Positions 270 through 26,570 of a DNA stretch of 40,372 nt are shown one piece after another. The notes below the pieces were generated by a model. That model was not told the origin of the DNA. It saw only the letters and a list, made by a program, of their open reading frames with translations, and ran no database searches. This DNA is from Opitutia bacterium Tous-C8FEB (GTDB taxonomy: Bacteria; Verrucomicrobiota; Verrucomicrobiia; Opitutales; Opitutaceae): assembly GCA_002304435.1 (NCBI GenBank), contig NEUZ01000009.1:1-40372 (forward strand). The letters are read 5' to 3'. The position numbers and the translations under genes were made by a program. The first letter of the stretch is position 1. Every line of letters starts with the position of its first letter.

Positions 270-1076
270 TCACGGCCGCATCGCGAGGCGGACCACCTCC
301 TGGTCGAACGTGTTGCAGGCGAGGCCGGCGTCGACGACCACGGTCGTGCCATTGAGGCCGCTGCTGCGGGGACTGAGCAGGAACGCAGCCACGTCGGCGA
401 CCTCCTGCGTAGCGAGACTGCGCTTCCGAAAGGTCAGCTTCTCGGCGTAGAGGTAGCTCTCGAGATAACCGGGGATGCCGGCGGAGGAGCTGGTGCGGAG
501 CGGGCCGGCGCCCACGACATTGAAGCGGACGGCGGAGTCGGCACTGAAGGACTTGGCGAGGAAACGCGCGCAGGACGCTAGCGCGGCCTTGATCGGCCCC
601 ATATACCCGTAGTTGTCCGGAGTGACCTGCAGCGAGGAAATGCCGATCGTGACCACGGACGCGTCTGCGGCGAGGAGCGGCTTGAGCGCGCGGGACAACT
701 CCACCAGTGAGAACGCGGAGATGGTGGTCGCCTGCAGGAAATCGGCCCGGCTGGTCTCGTGGAAGGGCTTCAGGCCCTCGCGGTAGTTGGCGAACGCGAT
801 CGAGTGGACCACGCCGTGTAACGGACCAAGGCCGGCGGCCTGCAGTTCTGCCGCGAGCCGCGCCGGCGCGCCCTCCTCCTCCACGTCGCAGACAAAAGCC
901 GTGCGGTCACCGAGGAGCGCCGCGAGCGATTGCCGGCGCGCGGCCGAGCGTACACTGTACACGACCCTCGCCCCCTGCTCCTCAAGCGTGCGCGCGATGT
1001 GCCAAGCGACACTGCGCCGGTTGGCGATGCCGGTCACCAGCACCGTGCGGCCGGCCAGCTGCAGGAAATCGCTCAT
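270..1076 (-). CDS. fabI: FabI-like enoyl-ACP reductase (SDR family)
   Basis: 268 aa. It is predicted to reduce trans-2-enoyl-ACP with NAD(P)H in the last step of a type II fatty-acid elongation round. The N-terminal cofactor loop TGIANRRSVAWHIA (from residue 15) is characteristic of FabI. The catalytic Tyr-x6-Lys pair is Y156 and K163 in PDNYGYMGPIKAAL, followed by GPLRTSSSAGI at 191-201. By position counting, the place of the second FabI tyrosine (Y146 in E. coli) is Ile here. Length is normal for FabI (about 260). The ATG overlaps the stop of the FabZ-like gene by 4 bp (ATGA), which suggests translational coupling. Given the operon, it may be a pathway-specific reductase and not the housekeeping one. 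Confidence 0.9.
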   Translation of the reverse strand: MSDFLQLAGRTVLVTGIANRRSVAWHIARTLEEQGARVVYSVRSAARRQSLAALLGDRTAFVCDVEEEGAPARLAAELQAAGLGPLHGVVHSIAFANYREGLKPFHETSRADFLQATTISAFSLVELSRALKPLLAADASVVTIGISSLQVTPDNYGYMGPIKAALASCARFLAKSFSADSAVRFNVVGAGPLRTSSSAGIPGYLESYLYAEKLTFRKRSLATQEVADVAAFLLSPRSSGLNGTTVVVDAGLACNTFDQEVVRLAMRP

Positions 1077-1525
1077 TGGGCGGCGGTACCGGCCGGGGCC
1101 TTCCAGGCGACGGCGAACTCGAGCGACAGGATGCGCACGCCGTCCTCGCGCCGGATCGAGCCCGCGAGCATCGTGAATCCACCAAGGGCATCCTTCTCCT
1201 TCACCTCGAGGAGCACGCGGTCGCCCGGGTAGACGGGATGGCGGAAGCGAACCTCGGAGATCTTCGCGATCAGGGGCAGCCCCTCGCCGGGGGCGGCGCC
1301 GGCCTCCCGCGCCTTGAGGGCCATATGGCACGCGGCCGCCTGGAACACGGCCTCGCAGAGCAGCACGCCGGGAGTAATGGGCGCGCCCGGGTAGTGCCCC
1401 TTGTAGAAGTCCTCCTCCGCCCGCCAGGTGCGGCGGGCCACCAGCGTGCCAGGACCGCGGCTGACGATCTCGTCGACGAACAGGAAGGGCGGCCGGTGCG
1501 GGATCAGGTCGGTGACGGCGGTCAT
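1073..1525 (-). CDS. fabZ: FabZ-like 3-hydroxyacyl-ACP dehydratase
   Basis: 150 aa, a single hot-dog-fold domain. It is expected to dehydrate 3-hydroxyacyl-ACP to the enoyl-ACP. The opening [14 protein letters not shown] (7-20) is the FabZ signature. The catalytic His44 lies in [13 protein letters not shown] and the catalytic Glu58 in GVLLCEA, with the usual 14-residue spacing. It overlaps both neighbours by 4 bp (the CrtI-like gene upstream and the FabI-like gene downstream), so all three are probably translated in series. No ketoreductase (FabG) is seen in the visible part of the operon; it would lie past the left edge or be supplied by primary metabolism. The family is sure; the symbol is by homology only. 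Confidence 0.9.
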
Positions 1526-2967
1526 AGGGCGGCGGCACGCTTTTCGGCGTGGAGGGCCTTGTCGATCCTGTTCGCGACGATGACCCCGTAGTTGATGGTC
1601 CCAAGCCAGCCGGACATAATGATGCCGACGGAGCCGGCGTGGAAGAGGCCGGGCAGCTGGTCCGGCAGGTCCATCGAGACCTTGAGTCCCTCGAACTTGG
1701 TGCCGAACGAGGTGCCCGCCCAGTGGGTCGTGTACCGCTCGATCGTCCGCGGCGTGGCGGCCTCGCGCCAGTCGATCTTGGTCCGCACGTCCGGGATGTA
1801 GCGTTCGAGCGCGACGATCGACTCTTCAATGAGCCGCTCCTTCGCGCGGGCGTACTCCTCCTCAGAGAGCCCCTGCCAGTCCTCGTGGCGGGCGTTGAGG
1901 GAAACCACGATCGCGTAACGGTCCGAACCAGGGCGGGTGTCCGGGTAATAGACCGAGAAGGTGCGGCTGGTGGTGTCGAAGGCGGTCAGCTCGCCGCTGC
2001 TGAAGCGGGGCGCGGCCGAGGTGAACACAAGGTCGCCGATGTGCGGGATCGACTCCCCGCGGCGGATGCCGAGATAGACTTGGCAGGAGCTGGAGTTGAC
2101 CCGCACCGCGCGCGCGGCCGCGAGGTAGTCGGGCGCAAGGTGCTCCTCGCCGGCAAGGCGGAACAGGGTAGTTTTAAGGTTGGCGTTGGAGAGCACGGCC
2201 TTGGCGCGGATCACACGCCCCCCCTTGGCGACGATGCCGGCCGCGACCTTCCGCCCGCCACGCTCCTCCACCAGAATACGCTCGACCAGAACCTTCTTCC
2301 GCAGCTCGACCCCATTGCGGCGGAGCTCGTCCACCATCTTCGCGATCAGCTGGTCGGAACCGCCCCGGAAGGTGTAGACGCCGGAGCCCATGAAGTTCGA
2401 GAAGACGATCCCGTAGGTGATCGCGGGGTCCTCGGTGGTCGAGCCGTTGGCGTAGGCGATGGGCTCCATCAGCAGCCGCTGCACATCGTCCCGGCCGGGG
2501 AAGAAGCGGTTGAACATCTCCCCCGTGGTCTCGCGGTGATCGTCGTAGAAGTTCATCCCCCGCAGGTGCTCGTAGAAGGCTTCCACCTGCTCCCGCGGCA
2601 GCCCGAAGGACTCCACCAGCACGCGGGTATAGTCCTCGCGGGTGAAAGTGGTGCGGACGTCCATCTGGGGATTGACGAAGCGGATGTCCCGCAGCGGCAC
2701 GATCGCGTCGGCGATCTCGCGGGTCCAGTACTTGCGGCAGCTCTTGATCATCCCGCTGGGGAAGCCGTGGAGCGAAATGTCGAAGATGTGCCCGCCGCGG
2801 CGCGTGAACCAAGTGGCGAGCCCGCCGAACTGGTAGTGGTGCTCGAGCAGCAGCACCCGGTGGCCGGCCTTGGCGAGGACGTTCGCCCCGGTGAGGCCGC
2901 CCAGGCCGCTGCCAATGACGATCACGTCGTATTCGTCCGCCACCCCCTTGAGCCAGTCGTAAGCCAT
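1522..2967 (-). CDS. CrtI/phytoene-desaturase-like FAD oxidoreductase 1
   Basis: 481 aa. It has an N-terminal FAD dinucleotide-binding fold, [20 protein letters not shown], with GxGxxG at residues 19-24, the ribose-binding acidic residue near E42 and a QFGG motif at 46-49. The C-terminal end, [20 protein letters not shown], matches the second FAD/substrate region of CrtI and CrtO/COG1233 enzymes. The family carries out desaturations, isomerisations or saturations of long hydrophobic chains, usually membrane-associated. No phytoene synthase or other carotenoid gene is nearby; the neighbours are fatty-acid enzymes, so an acyl-ACP or polyene substrate is more likely than phytoene. The gene starts 65 bp after the second CrtI-like gene and overlaps fabZ by 4 bp. 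The reaction cannot be stated from sequence. Confidence 0.9.
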
Positions 2968-2977
2968 TTAAGCAGCA

Positions 2978-3023
2978 GAGCGTGGGCGCTCGGGGGCGGC
3001 TTGCCAATCCCGCGCTAGGGATT
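2978..3023 (-). promoter_or_regulatory. Two small hairpins in the leader of CrtI-like gene 1
   Basis: The 65-bp gap between the two CrtI-like genes holds two perfect inverted repeats: a 5-bp stem with a 4-nt loop (2978-2991) and a 6-bp stem AATCCC/GGGATT with a 6-nt loop (3006-3023). Neither has a U-run after it, so they are not terminators. They could mark an mRNA processing or stability site between the operon halves. The role is inferred. Confidence 0.3.
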
Positions 3024-3032
3024 TCGCACGGC

Positions 3033-4463
3033 TCACCCGCGCTGCAGGATGTGATGGTTGGCCATCGATATCCCGCTCAGCATCGCCCCGACAATCCCGA
3101 GGAAACCCTGGTCCGTGCCGCAAAGGTAGACGTTGGGCGCGGCGGTGAGGCCCCGGCGGTGCTTCACCCCGGAACCGTAGACGGCGCCGCGCTGGTGACC
3201 GGTGAATCGCGTGATGGTGCGCGGGGTGAACATATCGGTGGCGACCGTCGCGGCGGCCAGCTCCGCGTCCGGCACCGGGGGCAGGAACCGCCGGGCGCTG
3301 GCCTGCACCGCGCCAAACCACTCCTGCTTCCGCGCGCGGTATTCCGGCTCCGGCCACGCCATCCAATCCTCGGGTCGCGCGAGGGAGGTCACGCGGAACC
3401 AGCCCTCGGCCAGCGCCTCGCCCGGGTCGTAGGCGAAGTTGTTCGGAAAACAAATCACGCCGCTGCGGACGTCCACGGGCGCCGCCGGGCACGCGTAGTC
3501 GAAGTTCCGGCCCTCGCTGAAGAAAACAATGGTGTCCCCGGACCAGCCCAACGCGGCCGGGGCGCGGTCGAGCACCGTGATAGTCTCGACGAATGAGAGC
3601 CGCCCTGACTCCGTGGGCCGCGGGGTGGGCAGGCCGCCGGCGGAGAGCAGGGCCTCGGTTTCGGGCGCGCCGACTGACGAGAGGACGTGGTCCGCCGTGA
3701 TCACGGCGCCGTCATCGAGCTCGACCCCGGCGGCGCGGCCCTCCCGGAGCAGGATGCGGCGCACGCCACATTTCATCCGCCGCTCGCCGCCAGCCTCCCG
3801 GTACTTGGCGAGCAGCACGCGCAGGATGCGGCGCACCCCCTCCGCGGGGCGGGCGAAACCCTCGAGGAAGAGGGCCTTGAAGAGGATCACGAACTGGCTG
3901 AAGTCCATATCCCGCTCGGTCGGACTCCCGTAGAACATCACCGGGCAGAACAGCATATCCTCCAGCAGCGGGTCGGAAAGGTGGCGGCGGACCACTTCCC
4001 GGGCGGAGGCGGGGGCGGCATCGAGGGAGACCTCGTCGTGGGCCCGGACCGCGGCGACGAGCGCGCGGAACCCATCGATCTGCGCCGGGAAAGCGCGCGC
4101 AACCTCGGCCTCGAGCACCTGGAAATCATTCGTGAAGCGCAAATCCGCCGCCCCGGGACCAAACGCGATCCGCGAACCGAGTTGCCCGCGGAGGGCGAGC
4201 TCGTCGCGGTCGATGCGGAGCTGGCGCAGCAGCTTGGTGAGCGGCGTCCCTTTAACGCCCGGCGGCACGTAGTTGGTCAGCGCGTGGAGACCAACATCAT
4301 AGCGGCGCCCCTCGCGGCTGTAAAAGCCGTTGAGGCCGCCGACGGCGTTGTGGCGCTCGAAGATGCAGACTTGGCGTCCAAAGTGGGCGAGCCGGATCCC
4401 GGCGGCGAGGCCGGCCATCCCCGCGCCAATGATGACCACGTCGTAGTGCGAGCGGGAGTTCAT
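3033..4463 (-). CDS. CrtI/phytoene-desaturase-like FAD oxidoreductase 2
   Basis: 476 aa, the same broad family as the 1522-2967 product but clearly divergent from it. The N-terminal FAD motif is YDVVIIGAGMAGLAAGIRLA (GxGxxG at 13-18, acidic residue E36), followed by AVGGLNGFYSREGRRYDVGLH. The C-terminal FAD region is YLCGTDQGFLGIVGAMLSG. Length is typical of CrtI-type enzymes (about 480-520). Two different CrtI-type genes in series next to ACP and FAS genes suggest consecutive redox steps on a chain carried by ACP. The start codon lies 15 nt after the T-run of an intrinsic terminator (4479-4502), so this gene and those after it may be transcribed less than the ACP and ketosynthase. Substrate unknown. 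Confidence 0.9.
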   Translation of the reverse strand: MNSRSHYDVVIIGAGMAGLAAGIRLAHFGRQVCIFERHNAVGGLNGFYSREGRRYDVGLHALTNYVPPGVKGTPLTKLLRQLRIDRDELALRGQLGSRIAFGPGAADLRFTNDFQVLEAEVARAFPAQIDGFRALVAAVRAHDEVSLDAAPASAREVVRRHLSDPLLEDMLFCPVMFYGSPTERDMDFSQFVILFKALFLEGFARPAEGVRRILRVLLAKYREAGGERRMKCGVRRILLREGRAAGVELDDGAVITADHVLSSVGAPETEALLSAGGLPTPRPTESGRLSFVETITVLDRAPAALGWSGDTIVFFSEGRNFDYACPAAPVDVRSGVICFPNNFAYDPGEALAEGWFRVTSLARPEDWMAWPEPEYRARKQEWFGAVQASARRFLPPVPDAELAAATVATDMFTPRTITRFTGHQRGAVYGSGVKHRRGLTAAPNVYLCGTDQGFLGIVGAMLSGISMANHHILQRG

Positions 4464-4478
4464 CGGCGGGCGGGCAGC

Positions 4479-4502
4479 AAAAAGCCGGGCCTGCGGCCCG
4501 GC
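4479..4502 (-). terminator. Intrinsic terminator inside the lipid operon
   Basis: On the minus strand, an 8-bp perfect GC stem (4502-4495 with 4491-4484, loop GCA) is followed at once by five T residues (4483-4479). This is the classic layout of a Rho-independent terminator. It lies in the 64-bp gap between the ACP gene and CrtI-like gene 2, so it would make the first two genes more abundant than the remaining five, or act as a regulated attenuator. Confidence 0.65.
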
Positions 4503-4527
4503 CGGAGGGAGAGGAGGAGGCGGCGGT

Positions 4528-4791
4528 TCAACCCTTGGCGGGCAACGCGTTAAACTTCGGGGTCAGGTACTCCGCGCAGCTGTCGAGCGAGGCGAGTTGG
4601 AGGTAGTCCGCCTCCGGGACCTCGATGCCGTGCCGCTTCCGCAGCTCCATCACGATGTCGAGGAAGTCCATGCTATCGAGCTGGAGCTGGTCGCGGAGCC
4701 GCACGTCGGATTTGACGTTGGTCAGATCCTCGTCCGGGGCGATGTCGGCGATGATGTCGAGCACCAGCTTCTTGCAGTCGTCTTTGGTCAT
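4528..4791 (-). CDS. Acyl carrier protein
   Basis: 87 aa, acidic and helical. The phosphopantetheine attachment serine is S40 in LQLDSMDFLDIV, matching the DSL/DSM-type motif of ACPs. The C-terminal part is IEVPEADYLQLASLDSCAEYL, as in helix III and IV of the fold. It would carry the growing chain between the ketosynthase, dehydratase, reductases and possibly the two FAD enzymes of the same operon. It starts 18 bp after the ketosynthase stop. It differs from typical housekeeping AcpP in having a basic patch (MELRKRHG) after the modified serine and a longer tail (TPKFNALPAKG), so it is probably a dedicated carrier. Confidence 0.92.
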   Translation of the reverse strand: MTKDDCKKLVLDIIADIAPDEDLTNVKSDVRLRDQLQLDSMDFLDIVMELRKRHGIEVPEADYLQLASLDSCAEYLTPKFNALPAKG

Positions 4792-4809
4792 GGGCGCAGG
4801 GGCAGCGGA

Positions 4810-6048
4810 TTAGGGGACAAAGCGACGAACAATCAACGTGGAATTTATCCCCAGCATGCCGAACGAGTTATTGAGGATGGTATCGACGCGGGCCGCCTGG
4901 CGGGGCTGGTTCAGGACGAGCCCGGGGATGGCGCACTGGGGGTCGAGATCGTCGACATTGATGGTGGGGTGGACGGTCAGGTCGTCGAAGCTGGGCAGGT
5001 TGCCGGCCAGTTCGAGGGCACCCGCCGCCCCCATCGTGTGGCCGATGAAGCTCTTGGTGTTGTTGATGTGCGTGTCGGGGCAGCCTTCCCCGAAGACGGC
5101 ACGGATGGCCTCACACTCCTGGATGTCACCCAAGGGGGTGGCGGTGGCGTGCGTGTTAACAATATGAATCCCGGCGGGGGCGAGGCCGGCGCGAGCCAAG
5201 GCGGCGCGGACGCACTCGGCCTGGCGCTGGGGATTCGGCAGCACGTAGTCGCTGGCGTCGCTATTCACGTGGTAACCAGCGATTTCCGCGTAAATGCGGG
5301 CGCCGCGGGCGCGGGCATCCTCGAGGCGTTCCAAGGTGTAGAGGCAGCCCCCCTCCGAAATCACGATGCCATTGCGGGCTTTGTCGAAGGGCCGGGAGGC
5401 CCGGGCGGGCTCGGCGTGCGTGGCGAGGGCGTTCTGGGACTTGAAGCCCGCAAAGATCCCAAAAGTGTGAATGCTCTCGCTCACCCCGCCGCAGAGAGCG
5501 AAGTCGACCTCCCCGAGCCGGAGCATCTGCGTGGCGTGGATTAGACCCATATTCCCCGCCGCGCAGGCGGCGCCGATGGTGTACGCGGGGCCCGTGGTCC
5601 CGAGGTTTAGCGAGGTTTCCCCGGCGGGGTTGTTCGCGACCGTCCGAGGGTTGTGGTAATGGGACCAGAACTTAGTGTCGTAGTTGAACTTGGAGATGTT
5701 GTAGACCTCGTTCTCGGTCTCGACATTGCCGTGCTCGGTGCAGCCGATGTAAATGCCGACGCGATCCCGCGGCAGGGTGTCGAGGCTCACCCCCGCATCC
5801 GCGAGCGCTTCCCGAGCGCAATAGATCGAGATGCTGCCGGCGCGGGTGCCGACCCGCAGTTCCTTCTTCTTCTGGTAGCGCAGCGGGTCGTGATGGCAGA
5901 CCCCAGCCAGTTGGCTGCCCATATAGCGGACGTCGATCCGCTCGATCCCGGCGACGCCCGTCAGCAGGTGCCGGCGGAATTCCGCCAGGGAGTTGCCGTT
6001 CGGGGCGGTCAGACCGACGCCGGTGATGACGATGCGGGAGGGCTGCAT
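4810..6048 (-). CDS. FabF-like beta-ketoacyl-ACP synthase (KAS I/II type)
   Basis: 412 aa, the usual length for FabF. It performs decarboxylative condensation of malonyl-ACP with an acyl-ACP. The thiolase-fold triad is complete: C162 in TIGAACAAGN, H300 in VNTHATATPLGD and H337 in SFIGHTMGAAGALE. The C-terminal NNSFGMLGINSTLIV is the conserved glycine-rich end. Because Cys is retained, this is an elongating enzyme and not a chain-length-factor homologue. It is the first gene of a minus-strand operon. Its ATG at 6048 is preceded by ACTCTTCGTCCGC with no Shine-Dalgarno sequence. The promoter must lie in 6049-6314, shared with the divergent small membrane-protein gene. Specific product unknown. 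Confidence 0.93.
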   Translation of the reverse strand: MQPSRIVITGVGLTAPNGNSLAEFRRHLLTGVAGIERIDVRYMGSQLAGVCHHDPLRYQKKKELRVGTRAGSISIYCAREALADAGVSLDTLPRDRVGIYIGCTEHGNVETENEVYNISKFNYDTKFWSHYHNPRTVANNPAGETSLNLGTTGPAYTIGAACAAGNMGLIHATQMLRLGEVDFALCGGVSESIHTFGIFAGFKSQNALATHAEPARASRPFDKARNGIVISEGGCLYTLERLEDARARGARIYAEIAGYHVNSDASDYVLPNPQRQAECVRAALARAGLAPAGIHIVNTHATATPLGDIQECEAIRAVFGEGCPDTHINNTKSFIGHTMGAAGALELAGNLPSFDDLTVHPTINVDDLDPQCAIPGLVLNQPRQAARVDTILNNSFGMLGINSTLIVRRFVP

Positions 6049-6172
6049 GCGGACGAAGAGTCAGCCGTACCCAAGCCGACGGCGAACGCAACCCCAGCCT
6101 GCCTCGCGGGCCCGAATTCCGGGGATAAGCCGGGGTCGCGCACGCCCCTTGGGGCACCCAGCCTCTTCCGCG

Positions 6173-6251
6173 AAGGGTCGGGCCAACGAAGCCGCCGGGC
6201 GGCACCGGGATCACACCCGGCGCCGGCATCCCCCGGCGTGGCCCGACCCTT
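6173..6251. promoter_or_regulatory. Cloverleaf-like structured element between divergent genes
   Basis: A perfect 13-bp inverted repeat (6173-6185 with 6239-6251; AAGGGTCGGGCCA) encloses three smaller perfect hairpins in a row: 6191-6203 (GCCGC/GCGGC), 6205-6220 (CCGGG/CCCGG, loop ATCACA) and 6221-6238 (CGCCGG/CCGGCG). Together they fold as a four-way junction. On the plus strand a pyrimidine-rich TCCTTTTCC follows. I recognise no known riboswitch or tRNA motif in it. It lies 63 bp before the small membrane-protein gene and 124 bp before the ketosynthase gene, so it could act in either leader, be a small RNA, or be a genomic repeat. Confidence 0.4.
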
Positions 6252-6314
6252 TCCTTTTCCCCGGCGCTGAATTTTCCGTGGACAACCCGGCGCGCCCCAC
6301 TTCACCGTCCAGGA

Positions 6315-6566
6315 ATGGCCCAGCAGGAACCGCAGGAACAGAAGTTCACCACTCCCGGCAGCCTCGCCGTCGACGCCGTGCTGACGCTCGGCTGCTTCGC
6401 CTTCCTTTACAACGTGGTCTCGCCCCACGTGCCCTCGAACGACAAGGCGATGATCGTGCTTTGGTCGGTCCTGACGTCGGCCTGCATGACCGGTACGTTC
6501 TGGCTCTGCGTCCAAATGTTCCGCGTCGTCCTCCGCGCCCAGCGCGAGGCGAAGCGCGGCCGCTGA
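6315..6566 (+). CDS. Small two-helix membrane protein, function unknown
   Basis: 83 aa. A polar head (MAQQEPQEQKFTTPG) is followed by a hydrophobic stretch at about 17-36, a short polar loop (SPHVPSNDK) and a second hydrophobic stretch at about 45-72, ending in a basic tail (RAQREAKRGR). By the positive-inside rule the C-terminus should be cytoplasmic, and with two helices so should the N-terminus. I do not recognise a family. It is supported as a real gene by the clean membrane topology, a purine-rich AGGA just before the ATG (closer than a normal Shine-Dalgarno), and its place 65 bp before a lipoprotein gene in the same direction. It could also be linked to the divergent lipid operon. Confidence 0.65.
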   Translation: MAQQEPQEQKFTTPGSLAVDAVLTLGCFAFLYNVVSPHVPSNDKAMIVLWSVLTSACMTGTFWLCVQMFRVVLRAQREAKRGR

Positions 6567-6600
6567 GACGCGCCTGCGGGCCCGGTTCGAGTTGCGCGCG

Positions 6601-6629
6601 GGACGGACTCCATTACGGTCCGACCGTCC
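6601..6629 (+). promoter_or_regulatory. Start-proximal hairpin before the lipoprotein gene
   Basis: Two alternative pairings share bases 6604-6606: CGGAC (6604-6608) with GTCCG (6618-6622), or GGACGG (6601-6606) with CCGTCC (6624-6629). The second ends two bases before the proposed ATG at 6632. Such a structure would limit ribosome access. A regulatory role is speculative. Confidence 0.25.
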
Positions 6630-6631
6630 AG

Positions 6632-7378
6632 ATGAACGCCGCCGCTCAGATGCCTGCCCGTTCTCGGCCGCGACCAGCTCCGGTCGCCTGCCTCGCGCTG
6701 GTTTGCTCCCTGTTCGCGGCGGGTTGCGCCACGACCCACGAGTTAAAGGTCGACGCAATCGCGAAGCCAAAGGCGGAAAACGCGATCTCCTACGAGATCC
6801 GCAACAAGAACCCTTTGGTGGCCGATGATTCGCTGCGCTACAAGGAAGCGGCGAATCTGGTTAAGACCGGCCTCTCCGGCCGCGGGCTCTATGAGGCCCC
6901 GGGGAACGTGAAGGCCGATATGGTGATCGACCTCGACTACGGCGTGGGCCCGCCGCAGGTGCGCCGCGAGACGGTGTCCGAGCCGGTCTACATCACGCTG
7001 CCGGGCCAGATCCGTACCGAGCGCGTGCAGGTGGGCACGGACTCGCAGGGCCGCCCCGTCTACCAGACCATCACAGTGCAGGATCCGCCCACGACGGAGT
7101 TCGCGGGGTTCCGCGAGTATATGGTGACCGTGGTGGTGTACGAGAAGTACCTCCGGCTCACCGCCCGCGAGAACAAGGAACCGGTCGAGGGGCAGCCCCC
7201 GGTCGAGGTCTGGACCCTCGACATTACCAGCGAGGGCGAGAGCAAGGACATCCGTAAACACCTGCCCATCCTCGTGGCCGCCAGCATCGACTTCGTCGGC
7301 AAGGACACCCAGGGCCAGAAGACCATCCGCATTAAGGACAACGCCAGCGACATCGCCTTTGTGAAGAAGGGGATGTGA
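6632..7378 (+). CDS. Predicted outer-membrane or periplasmic lipoprotein
   Basis: 248 aa from the ATG at 6632; a second in-frame ATG at 6650 would give 242 aa. A basic N-region is followed by a hydrophobic core and LVCSLFAAGCATTH, where Cys32 is a plausible lipidation site (lipobox AAGC; Ala at -3 is weaker than Leu). The mature part is soluble, beta-rich in appearance, with segments such as YEIRNKNPLVADDSLRYKEA and a VTVVVYEKYLRLTA stretch. It loosely resembles DUF4136-type lipoproteins of Bacteroidetes and Verrucomicrobia, but I cannot name the family with certainty. No Shine-Dalgarno sequence is present. Function unknown; secretion and lipid anchoring are the supported parts. Confidence 0.8.
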   Translation: MNAAAQMPARSRPRPAPVACLALVCSLFAAGCATTHELKVDAIAKPKAENAISYEIRNKNPLVADDSLRYKEAANLVKTGLSGRGLYEAPGNVKADMVIDLDYGVGPPQVRRETVSEPVYITLPGQIRTERVQVGTDSQGRPVYQTITVQDPPTTEFAGFREYMVTVVVYEKYLRLTARENKEPVEGQPPVEVWTLDITSEGESKDIRKHLPILVAASIDFVGKDTQGQKTIRIKDNASDIAFVKKGM

Positions 7379-26537: not shown

Positions 26538-26570
26538 GACGCCGCGGTCCCGTAGCGGGGCCGCGGCGTC
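26538..26570 (+). terminator. Strong hairpin terminator after the sigma-factor gene
   Basis: A 14-bp stem (26538-26551 with 26557-26570, one G-T wobble, loop GTAGC) begins 9 bp after the stop codon. The T-rich tail is weak (CTGCTTTCC). It sits between convergent genes and could stop transcription from both sides. Confidence 0.7.

Follow-up and report, generated by a model that had tools for sequence, protein, structure and literature searches.

A conserved structured element between a lipid operon and a small membrane-protein-like gene in five Opitutaceae genomes

The locus and its upstream blocks

The window, that is, the whole stretch of 40,372 nucleotides that was analysed, is contig C89 of the 2.17-Mb, 70% complete assembly of Opitutia bacterium Tous-C8FEB. 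A lipid operon on the minus strand (270-6048) encodes a FabF-like beta-ketoacyl synthase (KAS), an acyl carrier protein, two CrtI/carotenoid-isomerase-like FAD oxidoreductases, a FabZ-like dehydratase and, as judged by eye, a FabI-like SDR. In combining FASII with phytoene-desaturase-like enzymes, the operon is reminiscent of the fatty-acid clusters that have been discussed for ladderanes (PMC2649909). The KAS gene is the first of the operon, and is followed across an intergenic region by a gene for an 83-aa protein on the plus strand (Table 1). A structured element lies between the two. Since all of the family-named genes from 1073 to 6048 are on the minus strand, there is no recognised plus-strand gene just upstream of the element that would need a terminator.

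Table 1. Features of the element and its surroundings (positions in the window)
Feature	Position	Strand	Remarks
FabF-like beta-ketoacyl synthase (KAS), first gene of lipid operon	4810..6048	-	PF00109/PF02801
Promoter-like block of KAS gene, between element and KAS	6068..6094	-	putative; from comparing 25 genomes upstream of KAS by eye
Whole conserved element, 81 nt	6172..6252	+	67/81 columns invariant in five genomes; strand from T-rich tail, not fold energy
5' arm of 13-bp outer stem	6173..6185	+	13/13 pairs unchanged in 5/5 sequences
7-nt 5' bulge ACGAAGC (rod fold)	6186..6192	+	invariant in 5/5
Rod middle helix, 5' arm	6193..6199	+	pairs with 6232-6238; in the cloverleaf alternative, within hairpin 1 (6191-6203)
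Apical helix and variable loop	6200..6225	+	both partners changed in two pairs; A-C mismatch at one pair in G007
6-nt 3' bulge GCATCC (rod fold)	6226..6231	+	invariant in 5/5
3' arm of 13-bp outer stem	6239..6251	+	13/13 pairs unchanged in 5/5 sequences
Cloverleaf hairpin 1	6191-6203		GCCGC/CGG/GCGGC; direct reading
Cloverleaf hairpin 2	6205-6220		CCGGG/ATCACA/CCCGG; direct reading
Cloverleaf hairpin 3	6221-6238		CGCCGG/CATCCC/CCGGCG; direct reading
T-rich terminator-like tail TTTCCTTTTCCC	6250..6261	+	7 T of 12 (6-8 in five homologues)
AATTTTCCGTGGACAA block of 83-aa gene, between element and gene	6270..6285	+	conserved in genus and other genera
83-aa membrane-protein-like gene	6315..6566	+	no Pfam or NCBIfam match; membrane character by eye

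The 83-aa gene was found in 71 of 80 genomes of the family and in 24 of 27 of the genus. Among 27 KAS loci from 26 genomes, some of them partial, it stands beside KAS in five only, and at about 17 of 20 other KAS loci the opposite-strand upstream neighbour begins like a sugar epimerase, as judged by eye. In all five genomes the element lies between the KAS gene on the minus strand and the 83-aa gene on the plus strand, and an element at this locus is present exactly where the two genes are seen as neighbours.

Each gene appears to have a conserved upstream block of its own. Most of 25 KAS upstream regions share, by eye, a TTGC.TTCG - spacer - GG.TA block, and a AATTTTCCRTGGACAA block (6270-6285) shortly before the 83-aa gene recurs, allowing up to two mismatches, in 22 of 24 loci of the genus and in 16 of 28 loci of other genera, these counts referring to the best match anywhere in a locus, whatever its position. 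Between the latter block and the start codon there is often TTGTCC-n-CTCCTTTT, and TTTTCCRTGGACAA has four sites within two mismatches, one of them exact, in 436 kb of the same genome. No sigma-70-type site was found in 5900-6700, and the promoter-like block of KAS is also without a match to that consensus. The block at 6270-6285 is probably a promoter or operator of the 83-aa gene that lacks the sigma-70 consensus. A near-palindromic block, GGCCCGAATTCCGGGG (6109-6124), is almost invariant in the five species; it is situated upstream of the KAS promoter-like block and may be an operator.

As read from these blocks, the element probably lies outside both presumed transcripts. The original prediction had proposed a leader either of the lipid operon or of the small membrane protein. 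Since the promoter-like block common to most of the genus (by eye) is located between the element and KAS, the first of these is unlikely. The second is weakened, because the 83-aa gene has its own conserved block between the element and the gene, also in genera without the element, and the element is thus probably not the usual leader of this gene.

Structure, distribution and conservation of the element

The element had been described as a perfect 13-bp stem enclosing three perfect hairpins in a cloverleaf-like outline. Direct reading of the sequence bears out both the stem and the hairpins, i.e. an inverted repeat of 13 perfect pairs encloses three short hairpins, and the unpaired bases between stems are ACGAA (6186-6190) and A6204. 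Perfect inverted repeats of at least 13 bp with a gap of at most 70 occur twice in the window, against a mean of 0.2 per shuffled window (20 block shuffles); by themselves, the 13-bp arms are a modest surprise. The region 6160-6270 folds with a z-score of -3.48 on the plus strand (none of 200 shuffles as good) and of -3.33 on the minus strand (one of 200), and the fold is also strong on both strands with DNA parameters. The cloverleaf exists as a fold, but the predicted optimum is instead a bulged rod, with an energy of -58.9 kcal/mol against -55.7 for the cloverleaf (3.2 kcal/mol weaker), and the pairs of cloverleaf hairpin 1 have an ensemble probability of about 0.02. In the rod the outer stem, which is common to both folds, is kept, and is followed by the 5' bulge ACGAAGC, the 3' bulge GCATCC and an apical hairpin. 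On the plus strand, all five homologues are predicted to fold in this way. The cloverleaf, in which one pair is also broken in the G015 homologue, was rejected as the working fold.

A BLAST search with the region in 57 genomes, the source genome included, gave E < 1e-50 in four relatives from the genus (VHCY01000297, VHCI01000042, JAIXQE010000026 from a pond and CAIOTK010000506, 'ErkenSummer'), of which the record titles name two as 'Verrucomicrobia bacterium', one as 'Opitutaceae bacterium' and one as 'uncultured Opitutae bacterium'. A covariance model (R1) was built from the five homologues, and the best 150, 18 and 12 candidates per genome were scored for the genus, family and phylum, respectively. 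This structure-model search, a check that had been suggested at the outset, found the element kept in the four relatives, and the same five genomes account for its presence in 5 of 27 genomes of the genus and 5 of 252 of the family. In the family genomes no further homologue was found at E <= 1e-3 among the best 18 candidates per genome, under stricter filters, and in a draw of 387 genomes of the phylum none was found at E <= 1e-4 except in the source genome, among the best 12 candidates per genome and the matches listed.

Exact word matches were also considered. A 19-mer of the element recurs in 23 stretches of named genomes, but at E <= 0.05 the model is matched only by L150, L155, L161 and L165, which belong to the four relatives already known; the remaining stretches, among them L172 of an Opitutae genome, gave no match at that threshold and were read as chance words. 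Viral contigs have seven stretches with an exact 17-mer and none that matches the model at E <= 0.05. A weak model match (E = 0.0065) in G002, one of the 27 genus genomes, has the style of the outer stem and GGGCCA..GAAGCC in common with the element. It is an intergenic hairpin with a 13-bp stem and a similar outline (L127, 1501-1578), situated after an ORF resembling a sigma-54-type response regulator. It was rejected as a homologue and ascribed to chance, as the pattern matches five times outside the true five (G002 included) in 252 genomes, against eight times for a reversed control.

REP/BIME-type repeats are intergenic GC-rich palindromes with many dispersed copies. The element is likewise an intergenic GC-rich palindrome, but differs in that each genome yielded a single copy, always in the same place. 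Neither the source genome (70% complete) nor the four relatives gave a second copy among the best 150 candidates per genome. The proposal of a mobile REP-like repeat is not supported by this pattern of one copy per genome, always at the same locus and with no scattered copies among the candidates scored. Of the refuting outcomes named at the outset, the two that were checked, lack of conservation in close relatives and scattered copies, were thus not observed.

In the alignment of the five sequences, all but one of the 63 columns outside the tip are invariant (62 of 63), whereas the flanks have 115 invariant columns in 185 (70 of 123 on the left, 45 of 62 on the right; Fisher p = 5e-10, with the tip boundary drawn after viewing the alignment). 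For the whole element the comparison with the flanks gives p = 9e-4. Across the two bulges and the inner helices a single column varies, and no other invariant run in the 2.1 kb aligned across all five is as long as the 32 bases of 6172-6203; the stretch just before this run, 6140-6171, is poorly conserved by eye. With coding sequence included, 375 of 2018 windows of 81 bases from the alignment of all five match the whole element in invariance, and taken in full it is not exceptional beside coding sequence. A coding role is itself unlikely, as a 1-nt length difference in the tip would break the frame through the element. In the tip, two pairs are changed on both sides (17 of 500 shuffles as good), one further pair is G-C or G-U and one is an A-C mismatch in G007. 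With two such pairs in five sequences, the covariation is thin.

Three ordinary terminator-like hairpins of the same genome served as controls. One (L204, 12430-12456) has 25 of 27 columns invariant in the same five species, a second (L207, 14979-15003) has 18 of 25 invariant in three genomes and is present in two of the four relatives, and the third (26538-26570) is eroded, only 12 of its 33 columns being invariant in four species. Given the first two, a terminator cannot be dismissed on invariance alone; constant interior bulges and inner helices are, however, not something that a terminator requires. The L204 hairpin, nearly unchanged across the five species, carries a TTTTTCTTGCCCGCC tail. 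G009 and G015 have related hairpins with a tail of this kind at a second locus (L219-L224), and the hairpin may be a spreading terminator module.

The T-rich tail and comparison with known classes

The T-rich stretch noted after the stem on the plus strand is conserved in all five homologues, with 7, 8, 7, 6 and 6 T in 12 positions, whereas the corresponding counts on the minus strand are 2, 2, 2, 2 and 3. In 436 kb of the same genome, at least six T in 12 occur at a background of 0.7% and at least seven at 0.13%. The tract is interrupted by C. Terminator-like hairpins of the genome have similar tails, e.g. TTTCTTTTCC and TTGCTTTTCC, and 9 of 25 short-loop hairpins (loops of 3-9 only) have at least six T on one side. 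Folding shows no preference for the plus strand: the consensus energies are -57.1 (plus) and -60.5 (minus), and non-standard cells number three on plus and two on minus, counting the pair at columns 33/50 and leaving out the terminal pair 1/81, which in all five is G-T on plus and non-standard on minus. The strand was therefore assigned as plus from the T-rich tail, which is found on plus only, as folding energies do not decide.

Two features of intrinsic terminators, a stable GC-rich stem and a U-rich tract, are present, and the short loop is absent. A simple terminator scan, restricted to loops of 3-8, found none here; the element has 53 nt between its arms. The intrinsic (Rho-independent) terminators of the same genome resemble it in that a tail such as TTTCTTTTCC or TTGCTTTTCC comes directly after a GC-rich stem, but those surveyed have loops of 3-9 nt, in contrast to the structured and conserved interior of the element.

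The earlier statement that the element matches no known class holds at curated thresholds. None of 4227 Rfam models reached its gathering score in the window or in the four homologous loci, and no tRNA gene was found in the window by ARAGORN. The lowest E in permissive scans was that of mir-564 (RF03285), a microRNA hairpin model, which scored 30.3 bits (E = 0.0029) in the G010 homologue, on its minus strand; in the window this model was also the best, with 21.1 bits (E = 0.64). Its gathering score of 80 bits is far above the scores reached here, and the match is read as reflecting only the shape and composition of a long GC-rich hairpin model. The tRNA-Sec model (RF01852) shares a cloverleaf-like outline and a long stem, and scored 20.2 bits (E = 0.081) in the G010 homologue; its gathering score is 47 bits, ARAGORN gave no tRNA in the window, and the rod is the fold preferred here. 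No published report of the element was found by title or abstract start.

Stand-alone small RNAs are a general class in bacteria, and may end in a terminator. The element resembles them in being intergenic, structured and confined to one locus, with a terminator-like 3' end and a narrow phylogenetic range. It differs in being known from sequence alone and in belonging to no Rfam family at gathering score.

Possible functions

Rather than a repeat, a known riboswitch or a transfer RNA, the element is probably a regulatory or terminator element of minor importance that is specific to its lineage. Of the options originally offered, a small RNA appears the best candidate. The element is tentatively regarded as the body or 3' end of a short non-coding transcript of the plus strand, closed by an intrinsic terminator. 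Such a transcript would start somewhere in 6049-6171 and fold into the bulged rod, and the long outer stem and T-rich tail would act as an intrinsic terminator near 6255-6262. The RNA would then act via the conserved unpaired ACGAAGC and GCAUCC, which might base-pair with a target in trans or be bound by a protein, and in the predicted rod the two bulges are candidate contact sites. The predicted structure and its conservation, the single locus, the position between two conserved upstream blocks and the tail on plus only are observed; transcription, its strand, termination and any target are inferred. Against this reading, 5900-6700 has no sigma-70-type site that could serve as a plus-strand promoter, though the promoter-like block of KAS does not match that consensus either.

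The main rival is a plain intrinsic terminator acting as an insulator, which would stop antisense or bidirectional plus-strand transcripts from the KAS promoter before they reach the 83-aa gene and would have no other RNA function. It takes this place because two of the three control hairpins are also largely conserved (25/27 and 18/25), showing that ordinary terminator-like hairpins here can be highly conserved, and the terminator-like tail on plus and the position between two upstream blocks are what would be expected of it. For such a role, however, stem and tail would suffice, yet the bulges and inner helices are invariant but for one column, and a structured interior of 53 nt sets the element apart from the short-loop hairpins examined in this genome (loops of 3-9 only). 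On balance an insulator of this kind is the less likely of the two, and the small-RNA reading is preferred to it.

Below it stand two readings of equal rank, both improbable. In the first, the 83-aa gene would have a longer leader, transcribed from a second promoter further upstream, and the element would be an attenuator within it. The form resembling a terminator on the plus strand, 62 nt ahead of the start codon, and the two competing folds 3.2 kcal/mol apart speak for this. The outer stem is kept in both folds, so that switching between them would not change termination. Moreover, the 83-aa gene and its upstream block are widespread in the genus, the gene in 24 of 27 genomes and the block (at most two mismatches) in 22 of 24 loci, with 16 of 28 in other genera, and in most loci without the element the z-scores of hairpins upstream of the block are near zero; the exceptions are G003 (-3.87), L103 (-2.7), L119 (-2.89) and L108 (-4.17), the last without a good block. 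The second is an element acting as DNA, namely a cruciform-forming or protein-bound inverted repeat between divergent promoters that acts on supercoiling or serves as an operator. Strong folding on both strands, also with DNA parameters, and the position between divergent promoters are consistent with this, but neither a cruciform nor an operator would need bulges that are asymmetric or a T tail conserved on one side.

Lastly, the element might be what is left of a mobile or REP-like element inserted when KAS and the 83-aa gene came together in the clade. In favour of this, it was seen only at loci whose gene neighbours are not those usual in the genus. The reading is very improbable, given that no second copy was found in the source genome (70% complete) or its four relatives (best 150 candidates per genome), that plasmid and phage records gave no match at E <= 0.01, and that the element is nearly invariant rather than decaying.

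A fuller version of the small-RNA reading, held with less confidence than the transcript itself, is that of a new small-RNA family of one aquatic Opitutaceae clade. It could have been born as the lipid operon came to lie beside the membrane-protein-like gene, and might regulate one or both of these, or targets elsewhere, via its two invariant bulges. General principles would be unchanged by the element. To our knowledge few regulatory RNAs have been described in the Verrucomicrobiota, and a young structured element at a single locus, with five orthologues and a visible birth context, offers a tractable case of a non-coding RNA or an insulator arising at a new gene junction.
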